This document shows positions 541 through 15,168 of a stretch of 32,393 nucleotides of DNA, piece by piece. Numbering within the stretch: the first letter of the stretch is position 1; each line of letters starts with the position of its first letter. Made by a program: the position numbers and the translations under genes. Source of the DNA: Armatimonadota bacterium (GTDB lineage Bacteria; Armatimonadota; JAAZEB01); assembly GCA_012512505.1 (NCBI GenBank), contig JAAZEB010000155.1, positions 1-32,393 on the forward strand, read 5' to 3'. The notes beneath the pieces are model-generated. The model had not been told where the DNA came from, did no database searches, and was given only the letters and a program-made list of their open reading frames with translations.

Positions 541-3500
541 CTAGCACTCGCTGTGCCCGCAGGCGTGGCAGGTCATGCAGCCTTCCTCATGGATGAAGGC
601 AGCCTGCCCGCAGGCGGGGCACAGGTCGGCGGCCACCCCGACCGGCGGTTCCGTCTCGTGGCTGGCAAGCTCGTCCGGAACCGGGTGCCCGTTGCCACTG
701 CCCTCCACGCCGTAATGCTCCTCCAACGCCTGGGCCACCGCATCCGGCAGCGAGCGCACTCGGTCGCGGCCGAAGCCGATCCAGCGCGCGCCGCCGATCC
801 CCTTCATCTGGTTCACCATTTCGCGGATGCGGTCCAGGGGGCTGAGGGGCGAGGCGATGCGCAGCACCAGGGACATCAGGCGCCCAATCGCCTCCGCCAT
901 CGCTTTGACGTCGGTGCCTCCCTTGCCGATGTCCACGAACACCTCGAAGGGGCGGCCCTCCGCGTCGTTGTTCATCGTGATGTGGGCAGTGCCGGCGGGC
1001 GTCTTCTTGCTGACGGTGACGCCGTAGCGCTTGTAGGGCCGGGGGCGCACCTTCGGCTGCTCCGCCACTGCCGGGGCCGCCGCCGGCTTCTCGCTCGCCT
1101 CTTTGCGCAGCAGCACCTGTTCGTCACGCGAGCCGTCGCGGTAGATCGTACCCCCTTTGCAGCCGAGGCGGTACATCAACTCGTACAGTTCGCGTGTCTG
1201 AGCCACCGTGTAGTTGTTCGGCACGTTGCAGGTCTTGGAGATGCTGGAATCGATCCAGCGCTGGACGGCGGCCTGCACGCGCACGTGCTCCTCGGGCGTC
1301 AGGTCCATCGCCGTGACGAAGAAGTCTGGCAGCGGCTCGCCCGGGTTCAGCTCCTGCCACTCGCGCACAATCTCTACGTTCTCCTCATGAACGCCCAGCC
1401 GGCTCTTGCGGAAGTAGGTCCACGAGAAGTACGGCTCGATGCCGGTGGAGGTGCCGACCATCGTTCCAATCGTGCCGTTCGGAGCCTGCGTCAGCAGTGT
1501 CACGTTGCGCACGCCCTTTTCAGCCACCAGGGCGCGCACGTCCTCCGGCATGCGCTTCATGTAGCCGCTCTGCAGGAACTTCTCGGCATCGAACTTGGGG
1601 AAGGCACCCTTCTCGGCGGCCAACTCCGCCGCGGCGCGGTAGGCCTCGCGGGCGATGAACTCGTAGAGCCGGTCGATGAACTTTTCCGACTCGGCGCTGC
1701 CATAGCGGATGCCGAGGCGAATCAGCATCTCCGCCAGGCCCATCGTGTTCAGGCCCACGCGCCGCTCCGACTTTTGCTGCGTCTCGTTCTCGGTGAAGAA
1801 GTAGGGCGTCGCGTCGATCACATCGTCCAGGAAGCGCACCGCGTAGCGCACCGCCTGCCCCAGCGGCTCCCAGTCCACCTCGCCGTCCTTCACGAACCGC
1901 GACAGGTTGATCGCCCCCAGGTTGCACACGCCCCAACTTGGCAGGCCCTGCTCGCCGCAGTTGTGCACCACGATCCCGTTCGCGACGAACGAGTGGGTCA
2001 GCGGCTCCGTCAGGTCGTAAACCTCCTCCTCGCCCTCGTACTCCAGAGACTGGAAGGTGGCGCGGTAGTCCTCACGGTAGGGGCCGCGGGTGCATCGCTC
2101 CAGGTAGGCCTGCAGTGCGTCCTGCTTGCGCCGCAGGAGGAAGCCGATCTCCTCCGCGAAGCGCGTCAGGTTGTCCTTGGAGATGACCAGGTCGTGGTAG
2201 GCCGCGGCCCGGTAGAAAGCGTGCCCCCCTTTGCCGTCCGGCATCTCGGCCATCCGCTCCGGCTTGCGGTTGCGGTACAGGGTGCTGGCGATGCCGAAGT
2301 TGAGCAGCAGGCGCTGCACGTCGAGGAGCAGCCCCTCGCTCTTCGACGAGAGCCGGACGCTGCATCCCTTCTCGCCGCTATCGTTGACCTGCCCGTCCGC
2401 GGTAAAGAGCGCGGCCAGGAAGCCGGCCTGCATCTCCCGCGAGGCGGTGAAGAGGCGCTCCGGCACTTTCAGCTTGTCGCCCACCAGCCCAAACTCGTTC
2501 GCGACCCGCCACAGCCGCCACCCACCGACGCGCGCTTCGTCGCGCCCGGCAACCTCAATGGCGCTCACCGGGTAGGGACGGTTGGCTTTCTCCATGCCGG
2601 CCACGATCCGGTTCACCTTCTCGGCGAAGGCCGGAGCCAACTCACGCTTCTCCTCGCCGAAGAAGGAGAGCACCGCCTCGTTCGCCTTGATGGTGCCGTC
2701 GCCCACCAGCCAGCCGAGCACCTCGCCCAACTCGCGTGTGCCGGTGCGCCCGAAGCCGCCGCCCCCCATCTGCAAGTGCACGCGGTCGCCCGGCACCAGG
2801 GCATCGGCACGCACCCAGCCGCGGTCGGTACGCACGCGGTGGTCGCCGGTCAGGCGCACCGTGTAGCCTTCGGCCGTGCGCAGCCGGTAGACCGGTTTGA
2901 CCCCCGTGCGGAAGACATCCGCCGCGGGCGCGAACCGTCGCTCAGGCGATAGACGCTCGTCCAGGGCGACGTCCACCTCCGGGTGCATGGCCAGATCCCC
3001 GATGCGCTCCAGGCCGCGACTGGTCGCCACCAGCGTCTCCGCGGTAACACACGGGTTTGTGCACAAGATCGGCGCGTAGTACCAGGAGTTGGACATGCGG
3101 TTGTAGCGGTCCACGAAGAAGACGCCCGGTTCGGCGCTGGCCCAGGCGCTTTCGATGATCGCGTTCCAGATCTCGCGCGCCGAGCGCGTCTTGTGGACCA
3201 CCACCGGCTTGCCGGCCGCGCGCCAGGCATCCAGGTCACCATCCCACCGGGTATCGAACTCCGGGTCGCTGGTGTCGGGGAAGACCAGCTCCCACTCGCG
3301 GTCGGCCTCCACCGCGGCCATGAAGTCGTCGGTGATGCCAACGCTGATGTTGGCGTTGGTGATCTTGCCGGCCTCGCGCTTGGCGGTGATGAAGTCCAGC
3401 ACGTCCGGGTGCCAGACGTTGAGGATCAGCATCAGGGCGCCGCGCCGCGACCCACCCTGCTCGATCAGGCCGGTGACGAAGGAGTAGAGGCCGCCCCAGG

Positions 3501-4155
3501 AGACCGAGCCGGAGGAGCGCCCGTTGACGCCGCGCACGTAGGAGTGGCGCGGGCGCAGGCTGGAAAGGTTGATCCCGACGCCGCCCCCGCGCGACATGAT
3601 CTCCATCATCGCCGAGAGCGTGTCGACAATCCCCTTGCGCGAGTCGCGCGGGCTGGGCACCACGTAGCAGTTGTAGTAGGTGAGCTGCTGGTCGGTGCCG
3701 GCGGCGGTGAGGATCCGTCCGGCGGGCACGAACTTCCAGTCGTCCAGCAGCCAGCGGAAGCGCTGCTCCCACTCGGCGGCTTTCGGCCCCTCCACGGCGG
3801 CGATGCCACGGGCCACGCGGGCCATCATCTCCTCGGGGCGCGTTTCCAGCGGCTTGTCAATGTGCTCCACCGCGCGCTGCAGCGTGCTCCCATCGCGCAG
3901 CCGCACCGTCACCGTGCCGTCTTGCAGGTCGGCAATCGTGCCGATCTCGCGCTGGCCGGTTTTCACGTCGGTGCAGACCACTACCACGTCGCCCACTGCC
4001 AGCGATCTCTTGCTGGCATCCTTCAAGGCGTAGCGGTCCAGGAAGATCTTCTCGCCCAGTTCATTCAGTCGATTGCGCGCGGGCGCCTCATCCCCCGAAG
4101 CCTGGTCCGACCGGGCCTCATCAACCCGGTGGGAATCTGATCGGGTGGTATCCAT
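541..4155 (-). CDS. nrdJ: Vitamin B12-dependent (class II) ribonucleotide reductase with intein
   Basis: Reduces ribonucleotides to deoxyribonucleotides in the cytoplasm, using adenosylcobalamin to make the cysteine thiyl radical. Numbering here starts from a GTG three codons upstream (4164). The N-terminal redox cysteine lies in YYNCYVV (Cys166). The catalytic NPCGEQ motif is split by an intein (see separate entry), so the radical cysteine is Cys736 and the second redox cysteine is Cys747 in GVCNLGAINL, 11 residues later as in Thermotoga NrdJ. A TSCPD-like region and a C-terminal zinc motif (CPACG...CHACG) that may feed electrons to the active site follow. Residues about 53-105 are an extra, probably beta-barrel, insertion before the ATP-cone-like start of the fold. 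The ATG at 4155 is preferred because AGGAG lies 8 nt before it, whereas the upstream GTG overlaps that site. Without the intein the protein is about 840 residues, normal for the family. nrdR lies directly upstream on the same strand. Confidence 0.96.
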   Translation of the reverse strand: MDTTRSDSHRVDEARSDQASGDEAPARNRLNELGEKIFLDRYALKDASKRSLAVGDVVVVCTDVKTGQREIGTIADLQDGTVTVRLRDGSTLQRAVEHIDKPLETRPEEMMARVARGIAAVEGPKAAEWEQRFRWLLDDWKFVPAGRILTAAGTDQQLTYYNCYVVPSPRDSRKGIVDTLSAMMEIMSRGGGVGINLSSLRPRHSYVRGVNGRSSGSVSWGGLYSFVTGLIEQGGSRRGALMLILNVWHPDVLDFITAKREAGKITNANISVGITDDFMAAVEADREWELVFPDTSDPEFDTRWDGDLDAWRAAGKPVVVHKTRSAREIWNAIIESAWASAEPGVFFVDRYNRMSNSWYYAPILCTNPCVTAETLVATSRGLERIGDLAMHPEVDVALDERLSPERRFAPAADVFRTGVKPVYRLRTAEGYTVRLTGDHRVRTDRGWVRADALVPGDRVHLQMGGGGFGRTGTRELGEVLGWLVGDGTIKANEAVLSFFGEEKRELAPAFAEKVNRIVAGMEKANRPYPVSAIEVAGRDEARVGGWRLWRVANEFGLVGDKLKVPERLFTASREMQAGFLAALFTADGQVNDSGEKGCSVRLSSKSEGLLLDVQRLLLNFGIASTLYRNRKPERMAEMPDGKGGHAFYRAAAYHDLVISKDNLTRFAEEIGFLLRRKQDALQAYLERCTRGPYREDYRATFQSLEYEGEEEVYDLTEPLTHSFVANGIVVHNCGEQGLPSWGVCNLGAINLSRFVKDGEVDWEPLGQAVRYAVRFLDDVIDATPYFFTENETQQKSERRVGLNTMGLAEMLIRLGIRYGSAESEKFIDRLYEFIAREAYRAAAELAAEKGAFPKFDAEKFLQSGYMKRMPEDVRALVAEKGVRNVTLLTQAPNGTIGTMVGTSTGIEPYFSWTYFRKSRLGVHEENVEIVREWQELNPGEPLPDFFVTAMDLTPEEHVRVQAAVQRWIDSSISKTCNVPNNYTVAQTRELYELMYRLGCKGGTIYRDGSRDEQVLLRKEASEKPAAAPAVAEQPKVRPRPYKRYGVTVSKKTPAGTAHITMNNDAEGRPFEVFVDIGKGGTDVKAMAEAIGRLMSLVLRIASPLSPLDRIREMVNQMKGIGGARWIGFGRDRVRSLPDAVAQALEEHYGVEGSGNGHPVPDELASHETEPPVGVAADLCPACGQAAFIHEEGCMTCHACGHSEC
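1960..3051 (-). other. Intein with LAGLIDADG homing endonuclease inside NrdJ
   Basis: A 364-residue in-frame insertion splits TNP^CGEQ. It begins with Cys (CVTAETLVATSRG, the A block), has a B-block TGDHRVRT with the expected histidine, and ends in HSFVANGIVVHN followed by Cys+1 of the extein. All residues needed for standard Cys/Asn/Cys splicing are present. Two dodecapeptide motifs, LGEVLGWLVGDG and GFLAALFTADG, keep their acidic residues (the Asp of GDG and of ADG). The homing endonuclease domain therefore looks intact. Boundaries are exact to the residue, because the host motif NPCGEQ is restored on removal. Confidence 0.95.
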
Positions 4156-4357
4156 AAAACTCACTCCTCGCGTTGGGATGGCATCAGTGTCACGGTTCCA
4201 TCGCCTTCACGATGACGTACTGCGAGACGCTGCGATGCACCGCTGGTTTCACTACGGATGATGGGGTCTGCGCTCGTGCCACCACCTGGCCCACGCCCGG
4301 CGGCGCCGGCCACCGTCGCAAAAGTGCACGAGCGTTTGGAACACTCTACTCCCCGGC

Positions 4358-4858
4358 TTACTCGCCGTAGGGGAGGCGGGGTTGGTCGCGCGGCGGCGCG
4401 TCCTTCTCCTCGTGCCGCAGCACGTCCACCAACTCACGGAACTGCGTCACGTCGCGAAACTGGCGGTAAACCGAGGCAAAGCGCACGTAGGCGACGTGGT
4501 CCAGCTCGCGCAGGCGCGCCATCAGCAGCTCGCCGATCTGCGCCGACTCGATCTCCCGGTCCACCCGGTTGACGAGTTCGCGGTCGATCTCCTCGGCAAG
4601 CTGCGCCAGCGCGTCGGCGTCCACGTTGCGTTTGTGACACGCCACCTGGAGGCTCCGCAGCACCTTGTTGCGGTCGTAAGGCTCGCGGCGACCATCCTTC
4701 TTCACCACCATCAGGCGCTTCTCTTCGATCTCCTCGTAGGTGGTGAACCGCTTGCCGCACTCCAAGCACTGGCGGCGCCGCTTCGTGGCCTCTCCCTCTC
4801 GGATCTCCCGGGAGTCGATCACCTTGTCTTGTAGGCTACCGCAATAGGGACACTTCAC
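4358..4858 (-). CDS. nrdR: Transcriptional repressor NrdR
   Basis: An ATP/dATP-sensing repressor of ribonucleotide reductase genes, about 166 residues. The N-terminal zinc ribbon is visible as CPYCG and CLECGKRF, followed by an ATP-cone domain (VVKKDGRREPYDRNKVLRSL). The family normally begins MKCPYCG, and here GTG-AAG-TGT at 4858 matches with an AGGGAG Shine-Dalgarno 9 nt upstream. An in-frame TTG at 4894 falls inside the -10 box and is unlikely. It lies immediately upstream of nrdJ on the same strand, about 200 bp away, the usual arrangement for its main target. No clear NrdR-box pair could be identified by eye before nrdJ. Confidence 0.95.
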   Translation of the reverse strand: MKCPYCGSLQDKVIDSREIREGEATKRRRQCLECGKRFTTYEEIEEKRLMVVKKDGRREPYDRNKVLRSLQVACHKRNVDADALAQLAEEIDRELVNRVDREIESAQIGELLMARLRELDHVAYVRFASVYRQFRDVTQFRELVDVLRHEEKDAPPRDQPRLPYGE

Positions 4859-4892
4859 GTGCGCCAGCTCCCTACATGTTGTGTGGTAAGCC

Positions 4893-4922
4893 AATATAGC
4901 ACGCCAGATATGCCGCTGTCAA
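4893..4922 (-). promoter_or_regulatory. Sigma70-type promoter of nrdR
   Basis: On the minus strand TTGACA (4922-4917) and TATATT (4898-4893) are separated by 18 bp. Transcription would start near 4886, giving a leader of about 28 nt before the GTG start. The leader contains ACACAACATGTAGG, a partial dyad that could be an autoregulatory site, but the match to an NrdR box is weak. Confidence 0.8.
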
Positions 4923-5238: not shown

Positions 5239-6396
5239 TTAGCCGCGCAGGCTGTCGATCAGCACCCGTGCCACCTCGGGGCGGGTGAACTCCACCGGCG
5301 GCACCTCGCCGGCGCGCAACATCTCGCGCACCTTGGTGCCGCTGAGGAAGACGTGGTGCTCCTTGCCGTGCGGGCAGGTCTTGGTGGAGGCCATGCAGCC
5401 GCACACGCGGCAATTGAAGGCGTGTTCGAAGAAGAGCGGGGTAATCCCCAGTTCGTCGGGGGTGAACTCGTCGAAGATGTGCTGGGCGTCGTAGGTACCG
5501 TAGTAGTTGCCGACGCCGGCATGGTCGCGCCCGACGATGAAGTGAGTGCAGCCGTAGTTCTTGCGCACGAGGGCGTGGAAGATCGCCTCGCGCGGGCCGG
5601 CGTAGCGCATCGCCGCGGGCAGCACGCCGAGCACCACGCGCTCGCGCGGGTAGTAGCCTTCCAGCAGCACCTCGTAGCAGCGCATGCGGACGTCGGCGGG
5701 GATGTCGTCGTCCTTGGTCTCGCCCACCAGCGGGTGCAGGAAGAGGCCGTCACCCACCTCCAGGGCGCACTTCTGGATGTACTCGTGGGCGCGGTGGACC
5801 GGGTTGCGCGTTTGGAAGCCGACCACGCGCTTCCAGCCCTTCTCGACGAAGACGCGGCGCGAGTCGGCCGGGTCGAGGCGATACTGGGGGAACTGCTGCC
5901 GGCCGGGGCGGCGCAGCACCGTCACCGGCCCGCCCAGGAGCACCGGGCCCTGGGCATACAGCGCCCGCACGCCGGGATGGGCCTCCTCAGTGGTGCGGTA
6001 GACCTGCTGAGCCTCGTGCCGCGCGTCGTAGCCGTACTTCTCCTCCAGGGTCAGGATCGCCACGATCTGCCCGGCCGTGTCGCGCAGGGCCACCTCCTGC
6101 CCTTCCTTCAGGGCGTCCGCCTGCTCCTGGCTGGCGGAAAGGGTGATCGGGATGCTCCAGGGCAGGCCGTTGGCCAGGTGCATCGTGGCGACAACGCTCT
6201 GGTAGTCCGCGGCGCCCAGGAAGCCGCGCAGTGGGCTGAAGGCACCGATGGCGAGCATCTCCAGGTCAGAGAGCTCGCGCTCATTCAAGGTGAGGGCGGG
6301 CAGGCCGGCGGCCCGGTCCAGCAGGTCGGCGCGGGCTTCCGCCGGGGCGAACAGGTTCAGCAGTTCGCCCCCGTGGGGGGGGATGGTCTCTCGCAA
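5239..6396 (-). CDS. sat: Sulfate adenylyltransferase (ATP sulfurylase)
   Basis: Forms adenosine 5'-phosphosulfate from ATP and sulfate, the first step of sulfate activation, in the cytoplasm. Length is 385 residues, typical of the monofunctional bacterial Sat/MET3-type enzyme without a kinase domain. Nucleotide-binding motifs [11 protein letters not shown] (195-205) and GRDHAG (289-294) are intact. A cysteine-rich stretch, NCRVCGCM...CPHG (329-344), matches the zinc site seen in some bacterial and thermophile homologues. The start is TTG with an AGAGG Shine-Dalgarno 8 nt upstream. It lies 55 bp downstream of an Rrf2-family regulator, probably in one transcript. No sulfite or APS reductase gene is in the window, so an assimilatory or dissimilatory role cannot be decided; assimilation is more likely. 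Confidence 0.96.
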
Positions 6397-6451: not shown

Positions 6452-6892
6452 CTAGATGTAGAACATCGGCGCGCGCTCGCGCTCCGCTGCTTCCTGGCGC
6501 TCGGCGAGGTCGTGCAGGGTGGTGCCTTCCAGGACGGCATCGGCCTGGCTTTGCAGCCGTTCCCAGAGCTCAGCGAGGGCAACCGGGCGCTCCTCGGGCG
6601 GCAGATCCGGCGCGCGGAAGACGGCGGTGTCGCCGCGCAAGGCACGGAGCACGTCCGCGACCGTGATCTCGTCGGCGGGGCGGGCCAGCAGGAAGCCGCC
6701 AGCGGCGCCGCGCACGCTCTGCACGATGCCACCCCGGCGCAGTTGCAGGAGAATCTGGTCCAGGTAGGCCGGTGGAATGCGACCGCGCTGCGCGATGTCC
6801 CGGCTTTGGACCGGCCGTTCTTTGCCGCGCGCGGCGAGGTCGATCAGCGCCCGCAGGGCGTAGTCTTCGCGTATCCCGAAAATGGCTTTCAC
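6452..6892 (-). CDS. Rrf2-family transcriptional regulator (CymR-like)
   Basis: A winged-helix DNA-binding regulator of about 147 residues. The family signature is clear: IREDYALRALIDLA at the start, a recognition helix region (IPPAYLDQILLQLRRGGIV) and the wing VRGAAGGFLLARP. The iron-sulfur cysteines of IscR/NsrR are absent, favouring a CymR-like sulfur or cysteine-responsive type, consistent with sat directly downstream. Start choice is uncertain. GTG at 6892 gives VKAIFG, but a strong GGGAGGTGA overlaps it. That site is ideally placed (5 nt) for an ATT codon at 6883, and the promoter leaves only about 11 nt before the GTG. Confidence 0.9.
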   Translation of the reverse strand: MKAIFGIREDYALRALIDLAARGKERPVQSRDIAQRGRIPPAYLDQILLQLRRGGIVQSVRGAAGGFLLARPADEITVADVLRALRGDTAVFRAPDLPPEERPVALAELWERLQSQADAVLEGTTLHDLAERQEAAERERAPMFYI

Positions 6893-6909
6893 CTCCCAGG
6901 AACAGCCCG

Positions 6910-6939
6910 ATTGTAGCACCGCGCGTCCGGCGCTGTCAA
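6910..6939 (-). promoter_or_regulatory. Sigma70 promoter of rrf2-sat
   Basis: Minus-strand TTGACA (6939-6934), an 18-bp spacer and TACAAT (6915-6910). The predicted start near 6903 gives a very short leader. Confidence 0.85.
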
Positions 6940-6969
6940 TGCGTGGTGCCGTCCCGAGCAAACGTGCGC

Positions 6970-6999
6970 TTGATTGGGTGTCTGCCTGCATGCTATAAT
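6970..6999 (+). promoter_or_regulatory. Sigma70 promoter of the methyltransferase operon
   Basis: Plus-strand TTGATT (6970-6975), an 18-bp spacer and a consensus TATAAT (6994-6999). It diverges from the rrf2 promoter, with only 30 bp between the two -35 boxes, so a regulator binding between them could control both. Confidence 0.8.
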
Positions 7000-7014
7000 G
7001 CGCGGGGAGGGGGC

Positions 7015-7054
7015 GGGTGGTAGGAGCGCGGGTGCCACCCACCGTCGCGGTGGG
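7015..7054 (+). promoter_or_regulatory. Overlapping alternative hairpins in the operon leader
   Basis: GGGTGG (7015-7020) can pair with CCACCC (7035-7040), while CCCACC (7038-7043) can pair with GGTGGG (7049-7054). The two stems share bases and exclude each other. They also cover a GTG at 7032 that has a TAGGAG 5 nt upstream. A regulatory role is inference only. Confidence 0.4.
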
Positions 7055-7088
7055 GAGCCCGCTTCCGGCGCGGCAGGGACCAGCAGCG

Positions 7089-8825
7089 ATGCGGCAGGCA
7101 GAGGGCTATTGGGGTGGCGGGCGTGCCCGGCAGAAGGCGCGCCAACTAGGGCAGGTGTTTACCCCGGCGCCCCTGGCCAACCTGATCGCGGCCCGGTGCA
7201 TCTCGCGGCCGGAGGCCACCGTCTTTGACCCCTGCGTGGGCGAGGGGGCGCTGCTGCTGGCTGCCGGCCAGCGGCTAGCCGCATTGGGGGCTACCGCCTG
7301 GCACCGCCAGCTCTTCGGCCTGGAGATCGACCCGGAGGCGTGGGCTATCGGCCGCCAGCGCCTGGCCGCCGCCGCCGGGGTGGCGGTCGACGAGATCCGG
7401 GTGGCGCGAGGCGACTTCCTCGCGGGGCAATGGCCCGACCTCGGGCCTGATGGCCAGGCCTCGCTACAGGCAGCCGATACGCTGCCGGGGCTGGCCCTGC
7501 CGGCAGTCGCCCGTTGCCCTTCGCCGCCGCTGTTTGACGTGGCGATCATGAACCCGCCGTACACGCGGCAGGAGCTGCTGCCAGCGGCGCGCAAGGCGGA
7601 CGGGCACGCGGCCGGCCTGAGCCGGCGGATTGGGCTGCACGGGCACTTTTGGGTCCACCTGGCCCGCTGCCTGCGCGAGGGTGGCTGGCTGGGAGCGATC
7701 ACCACGGCAACCTGGCTCTCGGTCGATTCGGGGCACGGGCTGCGGGCGTTCCTGCTGGAGCAGTTCCGCGTTCACCTGCTGATCGACCTAGAGCGCGACG
7801 TGTTCCCGGACGCCTGCGTGGAGGCGTGCATCGCTATCCTGGAAAAGCGGTCGGGGCCGGCAGCGGCTGCCGCGCGCGCGGAGACCCCGGTTCGCTTCGT
7901 CCGGCTGGGGGCTGGCCGCGATCCACAGGCGGCGCTGGCCGAGGCCCTCGCAGGGGAGGGCGCTGGCGAGGGGGAGGGCTGGCGTGCCCGGGTGGTGCCC
8001 CAAGCGGCCCTGACGGCAGCAGAACGCTGGAGCCGCTTCTTCCTGCCGGCAGCCGCGTTCCGGGTCGTTCGCGCCGCCGAGAGCGCCCCGGGGGTGCCGC
8101 TGGCGGCGGTGGCGCACCTGCGTCGGGGGATCACCACCGGCAACAACCGCGTCTTCTTGCTGACGGCGGAGGCCGCCCGCGCGGCGGGCATCGAAGCGGC
8201 CCACCTGCGGGCGATCGTGCGCTCGCCCCGGGAGATCCCGGGCCTGGATACCGACGCGGTGGCGGCGCCGGCCAAGCTGCTGCTGCCGCCAAACCCGGAG
8301 CAGTCGGACAGTGGCGCCGCCGCCTACCTGCGAGCGCGGGGAGTGAGCGGGTCTGCCTACCTGCGGGGAGAGCCGCCCCCGCCGGCGCCGCTGCTATTTG
8401 GCTACGCGGTGCGCGGGCGCAAGGCGTTCTTCCGCAACTCGGCGTGCCTACTGGCGAGTGATAACTTCCTGGAGATCGTGCCGCGCCACCCGGACGACGT
8501 GCCGCTCCTGTTCGCCCTGCTGAACGCGCTGCCCACGGCGTTCCGGCTGGAGACGCTCGGGCGCGGGCAGGGGCGCGGCCTGCTGAAGATCCAGCGCCGC
8601 GAGTTGGCCGCGCTGGTGCTGCCAGACCCGGCCCGCCTCGATCCCGGTCTGCGCCGCGAGCTGGAGAGCCTGGGGGAGGCGCTGCGGCGCGAACCCGACT
8701 GCGTGGCCGCTCGAACCGCGCTGGACGAGGCAGCCTGCAGCGCCTGCGGCCTCGACCCCGAGGCGCTGCGCCGCGCCGAGCAAGAGTTGGTCACGGGCCG
8801 GCTGGCCCGGAAAGGCGCGTGGTGA
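7089..8825 (+). CDS. Gamma-type N6-adenine DNA methyltransferase (TaqI/Eco57I-like)
   Basis: Transfers a methyl group from S-adenosylmethionine to adenine in a DNA target. Motif X is GQVFTP (residues 21-26 from ATG 7089), motif I FDPCVGEGALL (46-56), an acidic motif II in LEIDPE (78-83) and motif IV NPPYTRQ (155-161). The second half, beginning near HLRRGITTGNNRVFLL, resembles the target-recognition region of TaqI- and type IIG-like enzymes. No nuclease motif is seen. Length is 578 residues from ATG 7089; a GTG at 7032 with a better Shine-Dalgarno would add 19 residues of low-complexity sequence. It is the first gene of a three-gene unit, and its TGA overlaps the next start by 4 bp. Confidence 0.88.
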   Translation: MRQAEGYWGGGRARQKARQLGQVFTPAPLANLIAARCISRPEATVFDPCVGEGALLLAAGQRLAALGATAWHRQLFGLEIDPEAWAIGRQRLAAAAGVAVDEIRVARGDFLAGQWPDLGPDGQASLQAADTLPGLALPAVARCPSPPLFDVAIMNPPYTRQELLPAARKADGHAAGLSRRIGLHGHFWVHLARCLREGGWLGAITTATWLSVDSGHGLRAFLLEQFRVHLLIDLERDVFPDACVEACIAILEKRSGPAAAAARAETPVRFVRLGAGRDPQAALAEALAGEGAGEGEGWRARVVPQAALTAAERWSRFFLPAAAFRVVRAAESAPGVPLAAVAHLRRGITTGNNRVFLLTAEAARAAGIEAAHLRAIVRSPREIPGLDTDAVAAPAKLLLPPNPEQSDSGAAAYLRARGVSGSAYLRGEPPPPAPLLFGYAVRGRKAFFRNSACLLASDNFLEIVPRHPDDVPLLFALLNALPTAFRLETLGRGQGRGLLKIQRRELAALVLPDPARLDPGLRRELESLGEALRREPDCVAARTALDEAACSACGLDPEALRRAEQELVTGRLARKGAW

Positions 8826-10213
8826 CGAAGCCGTCTTACTTTCAGAGCCGCTATCTGGCGCATAAATACTGGGGGCGGAGGCCCTGGTACGTGGTGCGGG
8901 GGCTGATCGAGGAGAACACCTGCGAGGGCGACGTGGTGCTCGACTCCTTCTGCGGCAGCGGCACCACGGTGATTGAGGCGCTGGCCACCCGACGACGCGC
9001 GGTCGGCGTCGATCTCAACCCGATGGCGGTCTTCATCACCCGCGTCACCGCCACGCCGGCCGATCCCGCCGCCCTGACCGACGCCTTCGAGCGGCTGCGC
9101 GCCGTGGCCCAGGCGCCGATTGACCGCCTCTACGAGCGCGATCCCGAGGGGATCGTGCCGGAGCACTGGTACCCGGATGTCGTCTTGCCGCACTCCTCGT
9201 TCGGGGCGGCGCGCAAGGGCGTCACCGTGGCGCACCTCTTCTCGCGGCGCAACCTGGCCGCCACCGCCTTCCTCTGGCACGCCATCAACACCCTGGAGTG
9301 CGATCCCGTCTCGCGTGATCTGCTGCGCTACACCTTCACCGCCGCGCTCGCCCAGTTCACCAAGATGATCCGCACCAAGAAGGAGGGCACCGGCTGGTAC
9401 GTCAACGCCTACCGCATCCCACGCAGTCACCGCGAGAATAACGTGTGGCACTCTTACGAAAACAAGCTGCGCGCCGTGCTGCGGATGAAGCGGGAAAGCA
9501 ACGAACTGCTGGGGCACGTGGAGATAACCCAGGCGCCTCCCACGACCCCCGGCGCCACCTGCTGCCTGCGCTGCGGCTCCGCCACCGACCTCTCCTTTCT
9601 GCCCGACAACAGCATCGACTATGTCTTTATCGACCCTCCCTGGGCGATCAAGTACTTCGACCTGAGCGTGCTGTGGTGTGCCTGGATGGGCTTCCCCCTC
9701 AACTTCGACGAGGAGATCTTCCCGCACGAGGCCAACTTCCGGGAAGACATGGCCCGCGCCCTCAAGGAGCTGGCGCGCGTGTTGCGCCCGGGCCGGCGGG
9801 CGACGGTGAACTTCGCCACCCGCCACACCGACCAGATCAACGATCTGCGCGAGGCGATTGAGCACTCCGGCCTGGAGTGGACCGGCACCCAGACGCTGCA
9901 GCAGGACCAGCTCTCCTTCGTGCAGCGGCAGACCGACCTGGCGCTGAAGGCAAACTACCTGCTGACGCTGGAGAAGTGGCGCGCCCCCGCCGGCGCCGCG
10001 GCGCTGCCGGTGACCGCTGACTGCGTGGCGGCGATGATCGGCGCGCTGCTGGCCCGACGGGGGCCGCTCTCTTACGACGAGATCTTCCAGCACCTCTACC
10101 CGGAGATTGCCCGCCGCCCGCTGGAGTGCGACATCCGCCGGGTGTTGGAGCGCAACTTCCGCCTGGTGGAGGAGCGCCGGCCCTATGTCGAGCCGCGCTG
10201 GGCGGCGGATTAG
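8822..10213 (+). CDS. DNA methyltransferase, DSFCGSGTT...DPPW type
   Basis: A second, unrelated DNA methylase of 463 residues. The SAM-binding motif DSFCGSGTT is at 41-49 and the catalytic motif DPPW at 271-274. The segment HKYWGRRPW (14-22) resembles the start of COG1743/DUF1156-like adenine methylases. A CLRCG pair (248-252) precedes the catalytic motif. The last 100 or so residues look like a winged-helix or target-recognition module. The start is GTG at 8822 inside GTGA, translationally coupled to the upstream methylase; GTG 8819 is an alternative. DPPW rather than NPPY fits either N6-adenine or N4-cytosine methylation, so the modified base is unknown. Confidence 0.82.
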   Translation: MTKPSYFQSRYLAHKYWGRRPWYVVRGLIEENTCEGDVVLDSFCGSGTTVIEALATRRRAVGVDLNPMAVFITRVTATPADPAALTDAFERLRAVAQAPIDRLYERDPEGIVPEHWYPDVVLPHSSFGAARKGVTVAHLFSRRNLAATAFLWHAINTLECDPVSRDLLRYTFTAALAQFTKMIRTKKEGTGWYVNAYRIPRSHRENNVWHSYENKLRAVLRMKRESNELLGHVEITQAPPTTPGATCCLRCGSATDLSFLPDNSIDYVFIDPPWAIKYFDLSVLWCAWMGFPLNFDEEIFPHEANFREDMARALKELARVLRPGRRATVNFATRHTDQINDLREAIEHSGLEWTGTQTLQQDQLSFVQRQTDLALKANYLLTLEKWRAPAGAAALPVTADCVAAMIGALLARRGPLSYDEIFQHLYPEIARRPLECDIRRVLERNFRLVEERRPYVEPRWAAD

Positions 10214-10224
10214 GGGAAGGCGAC

Positions 10225-13065
10225 GTGCCGACGATCCTGACGCCCTCACTGCACGAGCACAACTACTACCCGCCCCTCCTGGAACGCCTGGAGCGCGCCC
10301 TCGCCCGCCTCGGCCTCGACCGCAAGGGCTTCCACGTCGTCATCTCTCCCGATGCCGACAACCAGGCCGACCTGATGGTGAAGCAGTTCACTCAGGACCG
10401 CCTGGCAATCGAAGTGAAGAAGACGCGGGAAGATGTGGCCGCCGTGCGCACCTGGAAGCAGGCGCGCGGCTACGTCACCAACTCCACCACCGCCGGCCTG
10501 CGCCACTTCTGCGTCACCAATGGCGAGCTGCTCTTCATCTTCCGCCACGAGGAGGGGCAGCGCGTGGCCGCCTGCCTGGTGGCTGGCGGGCGCAAGGATC
10601 TGGGCCGCTTCGGCCCCGGCGGCGAGGCGGATGCCGTGCTCGACCGTTGGGAAGAGGAGATCACCGCGCTGCTGCGCGACCTCTTCGTCGTTCAGCGGGA
10701 GTACGCCCTCGACCACTCCTTCGCCGGCCTGATCGAGAAGTATGGCCAGGCCCACGTCCTCTTGGCCGAGCGGCTGCGCCGCGCCGTCGTCGAGCGCCTG
10801 GCCGACCCCCAGTGGCGGGAGGCGTTCCTGGCCTGGTGCCGCACCTTCTCTGCCACCCCCGAAGCGCCGGAGAACCAGGCCGTGGCCGCCGAGGAGGCCG
10901 CGCACCTGCTGCTGCACCGGATCCTCTGCTACGAGCTGTTCCGCACCCAGCTTGACCTGCTGGATGACCGCCTCAAGCGCCGCTTCCAGGTGCCGCGCGT
11001 CACCCTGGAGCCGCTTACCACCGCGGCGGTGGGAGACACGCCGATCACCCAGGCGCTGGCCGAGCGCTTCCAGGCCCTCACCCGCGTGAATTACACCCAG
11101 GTCTTCACGCGCGACCCGGTGCTGGACACCCTCCCCCTCGACACCGAGGCGGAGGGCATCGTGCGCGCCTTCCTGGAGGACGTGGATGCCTTCTCCTTCG
11201 ACCTGGGGAACTTCGAGGAGGCGCGCCGCCTCTTCCCCACCGTCTTCGAGGCGCTGGTGCCCCCGGAGAAGCGGCGCCGCTACGGGCAGGTCTTCACCCC
11301 CCAACCGCTGGTGGAGATCCTCTGCCGCCTCTGCATCACCGACCCTACGCAGCGGGTGCTGGACCCGGCGGCCGGCACCGGCGCCTTCCTGGACGGTGCC
11401 TACGAACGCCTCGACACGCTGGCGCTGGCGGCCGGCCAACCGCTGGACCACCGTGAGCTGCTGGCGCGCCTCTACGGGGTGGAGATCAGCACCTTCCCGC
11501 TGCACCTGTGCGCCGTGCGCCTGGCGCTGAAGCATCCCGCCTTGCCTACCGAGGCGCAGCTTTGCCACGCCGATTTCTTCCACACCGACCCCGGCTCGCT
11601 GCTGGGCGGGCAGCAAGCCGACGTGGTGCTCGGCAACCCTCCTTACATCCGGCAAGAGGTGCTGGCCGAGAAAGAGACCATCCGCGAGCGGATCCGGTCG
11701 GCACTGGGAGAGAGCGGGCCCACCGGCCACGCCTATCCCTACAGCCCGAGGGAGGCAGACGCCTACTTCTACTTCGTGGAATACGCCACCGCCTACCTGC
11801 GCGAAGGGGGCGCCGCCGGCTGGGTGCTCTCCGACAAGTTCCTGGTGGTGGACGCCGGCCGGCCGCTGAAGCAGTTCTTGCTGGATCACTACCACGTGCG
11901 CGCGGTCATCACCCTGGCGCGGCGCACCTTTGCCGAGGCCCTGGTGGACAACTGCCTCCTGGTGCTGCGCCGCCAGACGGGCGGAGCGCCGCCGGAGGCG
12001 CCCACGCTCTTCCTGAAGCTCCGCCGGCCGCTGCCGGTCGAGGAAGTGGCCCGTCTGGTGGAGGACCCGCGGCCGGGCGCCAACGCCTACCGCCGCGCGG
12101 TGGTCCGGCCGCGCTGCCAGATCGCCGCCGGCGACAAGTGGCTGGGCTACCTGACCGATGACGGCGTGCTGCCGCGCGTGCTCGCCTCGCCCGGGATGAC
12201 CCCGCTCGTTGCCGTCGCCACCTACGAGCGCGGGCCGGACAACGGCTGCGCCGCCTTCTTCTTCCCCAGCGAGGAGCTGATAGAGAGCTTCGGGCTGCCG
12301 GAACGCTTCCTGGTGCCGGCGGTGGAGCGGGGAAGCGACCTGCGCCGCCTGATCCTGCGCCGCAGCGAGTGCAAGCGCCTGCTGCGGGTGCCGCCGGATA
12401 CCGACCTGACAGCGCCCGCCAACGCTGGCCTGGCCGCTTACATCGCCTATGCCGAAACGCCCGAGTTCGACGCGGGCTACCGGCACCGGGGGCGCTACCT
12501 GCCGGTGCCACAGCGCCCGGTGGTCACCGCCAATGCCGGCGGCGGGCCCTGGTGGTCGTTCACCCGGGGCTCGGGCGACTGGCAGATCCTGGTGCCGCGC
12601 GGGTTCCGCACCCACTATAAGGTGGTGGCCAACCGGGCGCGGGCGCACCTCTCGACCAACTTCTGGGGCCTGCGCCTACGGGGCGCCGGTCGCCACCCCC
12701 GCGAGTTGGTGATCGATATCGCCTTCGTGACGGCGTTTCTGAACAGCAGCCTGGGGCAGCTTCAGGTGGAGCGCGAGGCGCGCCGCTACGCCGGCTTCAC
12801 CAAGCTGGAGCGCCAGGAGCTGGAGCGCCTGCGCGTCCTCGACCCCCAGCGCGTGCCGCTGCCGGAGCGCCGCCGTGTCTATCGGCTCTTCCGAGACCTC
12901 GATGCCGCCTATGGCACCCCGGCGTACGCGGATGCCCGCGAGGCGCTGGACCGGGCATTCCTCGCCCTCCTCGGCTGCGAAGAGCAGTACGACGACCTGA
13001 TTGACCTGCTGGACGAACTCGTTTCCGAGCGCCAGCAGTCCGGCGCCGGGCCGGATGCCGCCTGA
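10225..13065 (+). CDS. Nuclease-methyltransferase fusion, type IIG/type I-like restriction enzyme
   Basis: A 946-residue protein that probably both cuts and methylates DNA. The N-terminal 120 residues resemble an HsdR_N-like PD-(D/E)XK nuclease: Asp45/Asp49 in SPDADNQADL, then IEVKK (62-66), and a downstream FCVTNGELLFIF strand. A helical spacer (about 140-345) follows. The gamma-type methylase has GQVFTP (354-359), LDPAAGTGAFL (379-389) and NPPYIRQ (471-477). The remaining 450 residues would hold the target-recognition domain. The start is GTG 10225 with GGAAGG just upstream, 11 bp after the preceding gene. No helicase motif is seen, which argues against a classical type I motor subunit. It closes the operon. 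Confidence 0.85.
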   Translation: MPTILTPSLHEHNYYPPLLERLERALARLGLDRKGFHVVISPDADNQADLMVKQFTQDRLAIEVKKTREDVAAVRTWKQARGYVTNSTTAGLRHFCVTNGELLFIFRHEEGQRVAACLVAGGRKDLGRFGPGGEADAVLDRWEEEITALLRDLFVVQREYALDHSFAGLIEKYGQAHVLLAERLRRAVVERLADPQWREAFLAWCRTFSATPEAPENQAVAAEEAAHLLLHRILCYELFRTQLDLLDDRLKRRFQVPRVTLEPLTTAAVGDTPITQALAERFQALTRVNYTQVFTRDPVLDTLPLDTEAEGIVRAFLEDVDAFSFDLGNFEEARRLFPTVFEALVPPEKRRRYGQVFTPQPLVEILCRLCITDPTQRVLDPAAGTGAFLDGAYERLDTLALAAGQPLDHRELLARLYGVEISTFPLHLCAVRLALKHPALPTEAQLCHADFFHTDPGSLLGGQQADVVLGNPPYIRQEVLAEKETIRERIRSALGESGPTGHAYPYSPREADAYFYFVEYATAYLREGGAAGWVLSDKFLVVDAGRPLKQFLLDHYHVRAVITLARRTFAEALVDNCLLVLRRQTGGAPPEAPTLFLKLRRPLPVEEVARLVEDPRPGANAYRRAVVRPRCQIAAGDKWLGYLTDDGVLPRVLASPGMTPLVAVATYERGPDNGCAAFFFPSEELIESFGLPERFLVPAVERGSDLRRLILRRSECKRLLRVPPDTDLTAPANAGLAAYIAYAETPEFDAGYRHRGRYLPVPQRPVVTANAGGGPWWSFTRGSGDWQILVPRGFRTHYKVVANRARAHLSTNFWGLRLRGAGRHPRELVIDIAFVTAFLNSSLGQLQVEREARRYAGFTKLERQELERLRVLDPQRVPLPERRRVYRLFRDLDAAYGTPAYADAREALDRAFLALLGCEEQYDDLIDLLDELVSERQQSGAGPDAA

Positions 13066-13224
13066 GCCTGCGCCCGGCTGGCATACTCGTGTAGGACTCA
13101 TCGGCGAGGTGGGCGGGTCAATCGGGTAACTCCCCACGGCCACTGCAGTTTGGGGCGCGCAGGGCACCGGAGTGGTGCCACCGAAGGAGAGGGAAAAGCG
13201 CCCGAGCCCAAAGGAGTAACGTCG

Positions 13225-15168
13225 ATGATCCTGACGATGGCTCTGCTGAGCTTGCTGATGGCTGTCGGCACCGCGGAGCCGGCCGAGGCGGCGGCGAAGG
13301 AAGGGCCGCCGTTCCCGCGCATCGCCAACTGCTACGCGGTCGGGTTGTCGCCCGAGAGCACGCCGGCCGACATCGCGGAGATCGCGCGCTTTGACCTCCT
13401 CATCGGCGGTGTGATGTGCGACTGGGGCAACCCAGAGCACCGCCAGCGGCTGGCCGAGAAGATGGCCCTCGTCCGGCAACGAAACCCCCACATCCTCATC
13501 CTCGACTTCTCGTCCTCGGCGCCTTACTACTTCCCCAGCGACCCGAGTTTCCCCGAGAGCGGATGGCTGCTGCAGCCGAACGGCCAGCGCATCGCCGGCT
13601 GGCCCGGCACCGAGATGATCAACCTCACGCGCCCGGAGGTGCTCAACTTTCTGGCGGCACGCTCCGTTGCCAGCGTGAAGGAGCGGGGCTTCGACGGCAC
13701 GTTCATCGACTGCATGGCCAGCGGCTTTGACTGGTGGGCCTGCAACATCGAGAGCGGCGCCCCCTACCAGGTAGATGCCGACCGCGATGGCAAACCCGAC
13801 GACCGAGCCTGGCTCGACCACGAGTGGGCGCGGGCAAAGGCGGAACTGTCGCGCAAGGTGCGAGCCGGCATCGGCCCGGCGGCGCCCTTCATGACGAACT
13901 CGGCCGGGGAGTGGGGGCTTGCGACGACGAACGGCATCCTCCTGGAGGACTACCTTGACCACGTCCTGGCCGGCAACATGAGCTGGGACCGCGTCATGCG
14001 CGAATACCTGGCCTGGACGCGCGTGCCCCAGAAGCCCAACGTCACCACCATCGTCAGCAGCTCCGGCATAGAGCCCCCGTTCGATGCCTGGAACACGATG
14101 ACGGAGGAGGCGCGGAATGCCATCCTGGAGCGCGGCCGCAACCAGAAGGAACGGATGCGCTTCGGGTTGGCCACCACGCTCATGGGCGACGGCTACTTTG
14201 CCTATGACTTGCACACCCGCTGGCGCGGCCAGCGCTGGTGGTACCCGGAGTACGATGCCCCCCTGGGCTACGCCAAAGGCCCAGGCAAGCGCCAGCCCGA
14301 TGGCACCTGGCGCCGCGAGTTCGATGGCGGCACTGTCGTGGTGAACCCCACGCTCCTCGATGCCTCCGTGCGCTTCCGCGGCCGACACCGCGACGCCAGC
14401 AGTGGCAAGGTCTCCACCCGCTTTGTCGTCCCCGCGATGGACGGGCGCATCTTCCTGCCAACCACCGCGCCGCTCGCACCGGGCACGCTGCCGGATCCGC
14501 GGCCGGTGCTCTCGCTCTCCGGGCCGGATCGTGTCGTGGAGCGTGCCGACCGGGTGCTGCTTCGTCTGGAGGGGGCCGCGGCGCTCTTCGACAACGAGGG
14601 ACGCTTGCTGGCCTTGACCGACGGACGGCGCACGCTGCTGGAGCAGGCGCGCGCCTTCATCGTGAAGGACGACCGCTGGCGCGACTTCGCCTACGAGGGC
14701 TGCCGCCGGCAGCGCCTGCCAGACGGGAGACTGCGCTTCACCGGCCGACGCACTCAAGACGCGGTCGCGGTCAGCTACACGCTGGAGGTGCGGCCGGTGA
14801 AGCGCGGCCTTGATCTGGCCTACCAGTGGGAGGCGCTGTCCGACGCGCACTTCCACATGTTCCGGCAGCAGATTGACTTTCCGCTGGCGACCTACGGCGG
14901 CGGGAGCTACCAGGCCGGTGGCGCCCGTGGCAAGCTCCCCAGCGAGCGGTCACCCGAGCCGATCCTGCGGGGCGCCCTGCGCGAGCTGACCGCGCGCCCC
15001 AGCGCCGGGCCGACCGCACGCGTGTCGCTGTCAGGGGAGGGGACGCTGGTGGATGAGCGGCACTATGGCGTCGAGGCATTCCGCCTCGGCACCTACCCGA
15101 CCCACGGCAACGTCAAGGCCGGCGCCCGCTGGAAGTGCACGCTCCGCATCCGTCTTGCACCGCGGTGA
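13225..15168 (+). CDS. Secreted putative glycoside hydrolase, GHL15-like
   Basis: A 647-residue exported protein with a Sec signal peptide (MILTMALLSLLMAVGTAEPAEA, cleavage near residue 22-24) and an AGGAG 8 nt before the ATG. The central part has the look of the putative glycosidase family GHL15: a (beta/alpha)-barrel with LILDFSSSAPYYF, GFDGTFIDCMA and FMTNSAGEWG near the predicted active-site strands. The acidic residues of GTFID and of EWG are candidates for catalysis. A beta-rich C-terminal half follows. The substrate cannot be told from sequence. It begins the second plus-strand set, 160 bp after the restriction gene, and no clear promoter was found there. Confidence 0.75.
   Translation: MILTMALLSLLMAVGTAEPAEAAAKEGPPFPRIANCYAVGLSPESTPADIAEIARFDLLIGGVMCDWGNPEHRQRLAEKMALVRQRNPHILILDFSSSAPYYFPSDPSFPESGWLLQPNGQRIAGWPGTEMINLTRPEVLNFLAARSVASVKERGFDGTFIDCMASGFDWWACNIESGAPYQVDADRDGKPDDRAWLDHEWARAKAELSRKVRAGIGPAAPFMTNSAGEWGLATTNGILLEDYLDHVLAGNMSWDRVMREYLAWTRVPQKPNVTTIVSSSGIEPPFDAWNTMTEEARNAILERGRNQKERMRFGLATTLMGDGYFAYDLHTRWRGQRWWYPEYDAPLGYAKGPGKRQPDGTWRREFDGGTVVVNPTLLDASVRFRGRHRDASSGKVSTRFVVPAMDGRIFLPTTAPLAPGTLPDPRPVLSLSGPDRVVERADRVLLRLEGAAALFDNEGRLLALTDGRRTLLEQARAFIVKDDRWRDFAYEGCRRQRLPDGRLRFTGRRTQDAVAVSYTLEVRPVKRGLDLAYQWEALSDAHFHMFRQQIDFPLATYGGGSYQAGGARGKLPSERSPEPILRGALRELTARPSAGPTARVSLSGEGTLVDERHYGVEAFRLGTYPTHGNVKAGARWKCTLRIRLAPR

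Follow-up and report, generated by a model that had tools for sequence, protein, structure and literature searches.

The window, a stretch of 32,393 nucleotides from an Armatimonadota bacterium, carries three plus-strand genes, p1, p2 and p3, which fill positions 7089-13065. They most probably make up a Type IIG (IIC/G) restriction-modification system with the M1-M2-RM layout of BpuSI, in which p1 and p2 would act on opposite strands of an asymmetric site and p3 would cut when neither strand is modified. This reading is directly supported by the order and coupling of the genes, the domain make-up of the proteins, the homology of the nuclease with its conserved catalytic residues and purifying selection in three genera. 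The features of the operon are as follows.

6970..6999, plus strand: promoter-like site, TTGATT-18-TATAAT, TG-extended, upstream of p1 (consensus scan)
7089..8825, plus strand: p1, gamma-class (NPPY) m6A DNA methyltransferase, 578 aa, M1-like (Pfam and PDB match)
8822..10213 (alternative start 8819), plus strand: p2, N6/N4 amino-methyltransferase, 463-464 aa, M2-like (Pfam, PDB, motifs)
10225..13065, plus strand: p3, probable Type IIG restriction-modification fusion, 946 aa (N6_Mtase E 2.5e-24; BpuSI 3s1s E 2.9e-12 with the three-genus profile)
10225..10620, plus strand: predicted PD-(D/E)XK nuclease domain of p3, about residues 1-130 (profile match to 3s1s)
11200..12024, plus strand: gamma methyltransferase domain of p3 with DPAAGTG and NPPY (Pfam N6_Mtase, residues 349-600)
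12025..13062, plus strand: C-terminal region of p3, presumed target recognition domain (follows the methyltransferase domain as in BpuSI)

All three reading frames are open at these coordinates and display strong coding periodicity, and the G+C content of their codon positions is distributed as in genuine genes of this G+C-rich genome. The overlap of p1 and p2 amounts to 4-7 bp, depending on whether p2 starts at 8819 or at 8822. The GTG at 8822 overlaps the stop codon of p1 as GTGA, the classical form, and the junction resembles that of genes coupled in translation. The start of p3 is the GTG at 10225, 11 bp past the p2 stop, and is preceded by a Shine-Dalgarno-like stretch, GGGGAAGG. Both methylases are encoded ahead of the nuclease, an order that fits protection before cutting. 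The original prediction had placed three adjacent methylase genes here, two of them translationally coupled and the third 11 bp further on; it had assigned p1 to the NPPY gamma type, p2 to the DSFCGSGTT...DPPW type and p3 to the PD-(D/E)XK-methylase fusions. This description is borne out by the reading frames and by the domain matches given below.

A consensus scan of positions 6850-13300 returned two promoter-like sites against 0.3 expected, which by itself is no evidence of function. The site at 6970-6999 lies within a divergent intergenic region common to the operon and to the genes of an Rrf2-family regulator and a sulfate adenylyltransferase. The latter two are found on the minus strand, the Rrf2/CymR-like regulator at 6452-7042 and then the sulfate adenylyltransferase at 5239-6396, divergent from the operon and sharing its upstream region.

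The p3 protein is assigned on its sequence to Type IIG (IIC), as it appears to unite a nuclease, a gamma methylase and a specificity region in one chain. For the predicted nuclease the sequence evidence is good. Residues 1-116 are similar to the BpuSI nuclease, and the E value is 2.4e-10 when p3 is used as a whole single sequence and improves to 2.9e-12 with a profile of the three genera. When the N-terminal profile alone is compared with the PDB, BpuSI (3s1s, E 7e-8) is the sole significant chain. D49, E63 and K65 of p3 (numbered from Met1) line up with D60, E76 and K78 of BpuSI, as counted from the alignment, and are invariant across the three genera. The BpuSI residues are those which we take to be catalytic. 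The match is a distant one: the Pfam family BpuSI_N (PF15516) is found in p3 at E 0.001 and 19.5 bits, under its curated cut-off of 25 bits. Besides N6_Mtase, the Eco57I family of Pfam is also assigned to p3, and the score of MmeI_Mtase, 23.4, is below the cut-off of 27. The C-terminal region has no match in a Pfam search and weakly resembles residues 724-804 of BpuSI with the three-genus profile.

Between genera, the overall dN/dS ratio is 0.22-0.30; for p3 as a whole it is 0.22-0.25, and the nuclease part of p3 has the lowest values, 0.11-0.21. The nuclease function therefore appears to have been under selection, and the arrangement of the reading frames is not due to chance, since it is the nuclease part that is best conserved. 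It is barely conceivable that p3 is a methylase with a dead nuclease and that the operon serves epigenetic marking only. Such a role might be argued from the AlphaFold model of p3, which was made from three sequences, has a pLDDT of 37 and leaves the PD-(D/E)XK fold unconfirmed, but the invariance of the active-site D, E and K and the low dN/dS of this part speak against it.

The first methylase, p1, is matched by the Pfam families N6_Mtase (E 1.9e-17) and Eco57I (E 5.5e-13), and its closest PDB match is M.BseCI (E 5.6e-13). It is homologous to p3 over the gamma methylase domains, with 27% identity over the 615 columns of the full-length alignment. The deduction of a shared site from a likeness of the p1 and p3 C-terminal regions is unsupported by sequence: a direct tblastn search gave no significant match between the two regions, and the common recognition site is thus something that we infer.

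The second methylase, p2, belongs to another class. It is matched by N6_N4_Mtase of Pfam (E 2.5e-15) and by cytosine-N4 and other DNA methyltransferases in the PDB (E about 1e-6, spanning the motif I region). Motif I (DSFCGSGTT) comes first and motif IV (DPPW) about 230 residues further on; DPPW in place of SPP(Y/W) is taken by us as a pointer to m6A. The structural matches of the AlphaFold model of p2 (pLDDT 62) are generic Rossmann methylases with low TM-scores only, so the model adds nothing to the sequence evidence. A scan of viral contigs with p2 found no relatives.

The original prediction regarded two methylases beside a Type IIG enzyme as unusual. The BpuSI system, however, has just this composition, with two methyltransferases and RM.BpuSI (PMC3817140), and a review of the Type II enzymes recognizes stand-alone forms (MmeI) as well as forms with one companion (Eco57I) and with two (BpuSI) (PMC4081073). 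M1.BpuSI makes m6A on the top strand of GGGAC and M2.BpuSI makes m5C on the other strand (PMC3817140). RM.BpuSI cuts 10/14 downstream, and its own methylase activity is 4-6 fold weaker than that of M1 (PMC3817140). Modification by M2 alone stops cutting in vitro, and stable clones require both M1 and M2 (PMC3817140).

The p1-p2-p3 operon has the same parts as BpuSI and its homologue BspLU11III, namely two separate methylases and one nuclease-methylase-specificity fusion. The N-terminal PD-(D/E)XK domains are homologous by profile, the domain order of p3 is that of BpuSI, and a gamma m6A methylase is present in both M1 and RM as it is in p1 and p3. The difference lies in the second methylase, which is a cytosine-C5 enzyme in M2.BpuSI and an amino (N6 or N4) methylase (N6_N4_Mtase, DPPW) in p2; the cytosine-C5 M2 is a feature of the prototype BpuSI and not a requirement of the layout. 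Systems of the Eco57I type likewise pair a fused RM with a companion methylase, and here p1 and the p3 methylase domain are homologues, but Eco57I-type systems have one companion only, whereas the operon adds a second of another class. Stand-alone enzymes of the MmeI type (Type IIG/IIL) are, like p3, single-chain nuclease-methylase-specificity proteins; unlike p3, MmeI protects by methylation of one strand without a companion.

Given the BpuSI precedent and the forms described in the review, the simplest reading is an asymmetric site at which p1 modifies one strand and p2 the other, and p3 cuts unmodified DNA. On one strand of the recognition site p1 would put m6A and so be the main protector of this strand, and the amino-methyltransferase p2 would modify the opposite strand. 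The fusion protein p3 would use its C-terminal domain to recognize this site as well, its PD-(D/E)XK domain would cut at a fixed distance if neither strand is modified, and p3 may itself weakly methylate one strand. We infer from the precedent that p1, p2 and p3 have one site in common, which strand belongs to each enzyme, which base p2 modifies and that cleavage takes place beside the site.

A layered modification scheme, which had been suggested originally, would give the three enzymes three different motifs and let the combined marks govern cutting, as in a conditional defence system. There are three methylase domains of two classes, and the C-terminal sequences of p1 and p3 do not support a common site. 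Such a system is nevertheless highly improbable, because the parts can be accounted for by a single asymmetric site that is modified on both strands, BpuSI provides a precedent for three methylases with one site, and the search beside the operon found no extra effector, no helicase and no defence regulator. The predicted lack of BREX or DISARM markers and of a helicase was confirmed by a PADLOC scan of ten neighbouring proteins, and the marker searches beside the operon ruled out BREX and DISARM as candidates. MADS was rejected as well; the MAD2 model NF047738 scores 57.5 bits, short of its cut-off of 720, and the searches found no MAD partner genes. The sole PADLOC hits in the ten proteins are homing-endonuclease models that match an intein.

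This intein interrupts the barrel domain of the large chain of ribonucleotide reductase (541-4164, minus strand, 1207 aa) at about residues 413-735, and carries a LAGLIDADG endonuclease domain (Pfam Intein_splicing, LAGLIDADG_3). An nrdR-like regulator at 4358-4894 adjoins the reductase gene.

Relatives of the operon were sought among 291 genomes of the phylum Armatimonadota. Full-length p3 is found in only three of them, G000 (the genome of the window), G203 and G204, which belong to one family and each to another genus, and a search of the genome contigs with the p3 profile gave no relatives beyond the two already known. Homologues that never occur together would have spoken against a system; p1, p2 and p3 are all present in 3/3 sampled genera of the family. 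Two of the three genera keep the gene order, and the third departs from it. For G203, the order p1-p2-p3 emerges when two contigs are joined that overlap identically over 127 bp inside p2; the genes are then 30 and 41 bp apart. In G204 the genes are dispersed. There, p1 and p2 are on one contig, where a DUF1828/DUF1829 gene separates them, and p3 is on a separate contig of 17.5 kb, adjoining phosphoglycerate mutase and threonine synthase. The separation of p3 from p1 and p2 indicates that tight linkage is not essential. Each of the three genomes has other surroundings for the operon genes, as would be seen with a mobile module. The DUF1828/DUF1829 gene (L027 1571-2296, minus strand) has an unusually low G+C content at the third codon position and is possibly a recent insertion.

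Searches of plasmids and phages returned methylase matches of 21-31%. The two haloarchaeal fusions inspected among them are stand-alone, without companion methylases. The nuclease part of p3 alone has no match among plasmids.

Each of the three genomes (G000, G203 and G204) has a second, solitary p2-like gene, the product of which is 65-67% identical to p2.

G000, contig C308, 22510-23853 (L051 8511-9854); L052 7758-9149; L053 5950-7344: solitary p2-like DNA methylase, adjoining glycosyltransferase genes

In G203 and G204 the neighbours belong to the GT9 family according to Pfam, and the neighbour in the genome of the window is similar to these. The solitary methylase is a candidate for a lineage-wide epigenetic methylase. 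The solitary copies group with one another (support 87/97) and not with the operon copies, and the two lines probably split earlier than the genera. Operon and solitary copies diverge most in residues 81-135, in residues 336-388 and in the C-terminal part, which suggests different tasks.

The conserved solitary paralogue beside glycosyltransferase genes in 3/3 genomes is the main support for a two-gene system of the Eco57I type, in which p1 and p3 would suffice and p2 would be an unrelated methylase with its own site that has joined the operon. Eco57I, which needs one companion only, is a precedent for p1 and p3 alone (PMC4081073), and the separation of p1 from p2 by other genes in G204 also counts in favour of a non-cognate p2. 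Against this, in two genera the operon copy of p2 has remained flanked by p1 and p3, in one of them with the GTGA overlap, and it forms a group distinct from the solitary copies, the divergence of which suggests separate tasks; a p2 foreign to the system is thus unlikely. The presence of the paralogue in each genome means that the specificity of p2 could be independent of that of p3. In the extreme, p2 and its paralogue would have one motif in common, different from the site of p3, the operon would tie restriction to a lineage-wide epigenetic mark, and both marks would be needed for cutting or protection; this is considered very unlikely.

The BpuSI-like reading, in which p2 is the second-strand enzyme, would extend the M1-M2-RM layout to the Armatimonadota, and it suggests that the M2 slot can hold an amino-methyltransferase. 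Since the solitary paralogue is kept in 3/3 sampled genera, the operon/solitary pair offers a small test case for the exchange between companion and solitary methylases. On the practical side, a new Type IIS/G cutter could be obtained from p3. A distant methylase of the p2 type (840 aa), from a further member of the phylum, lies beside an ATPase-like protein of 1211 aa (L055 7633-13902, minus strand), and this pair, annotated by eye, recalls a BREX-like pair.
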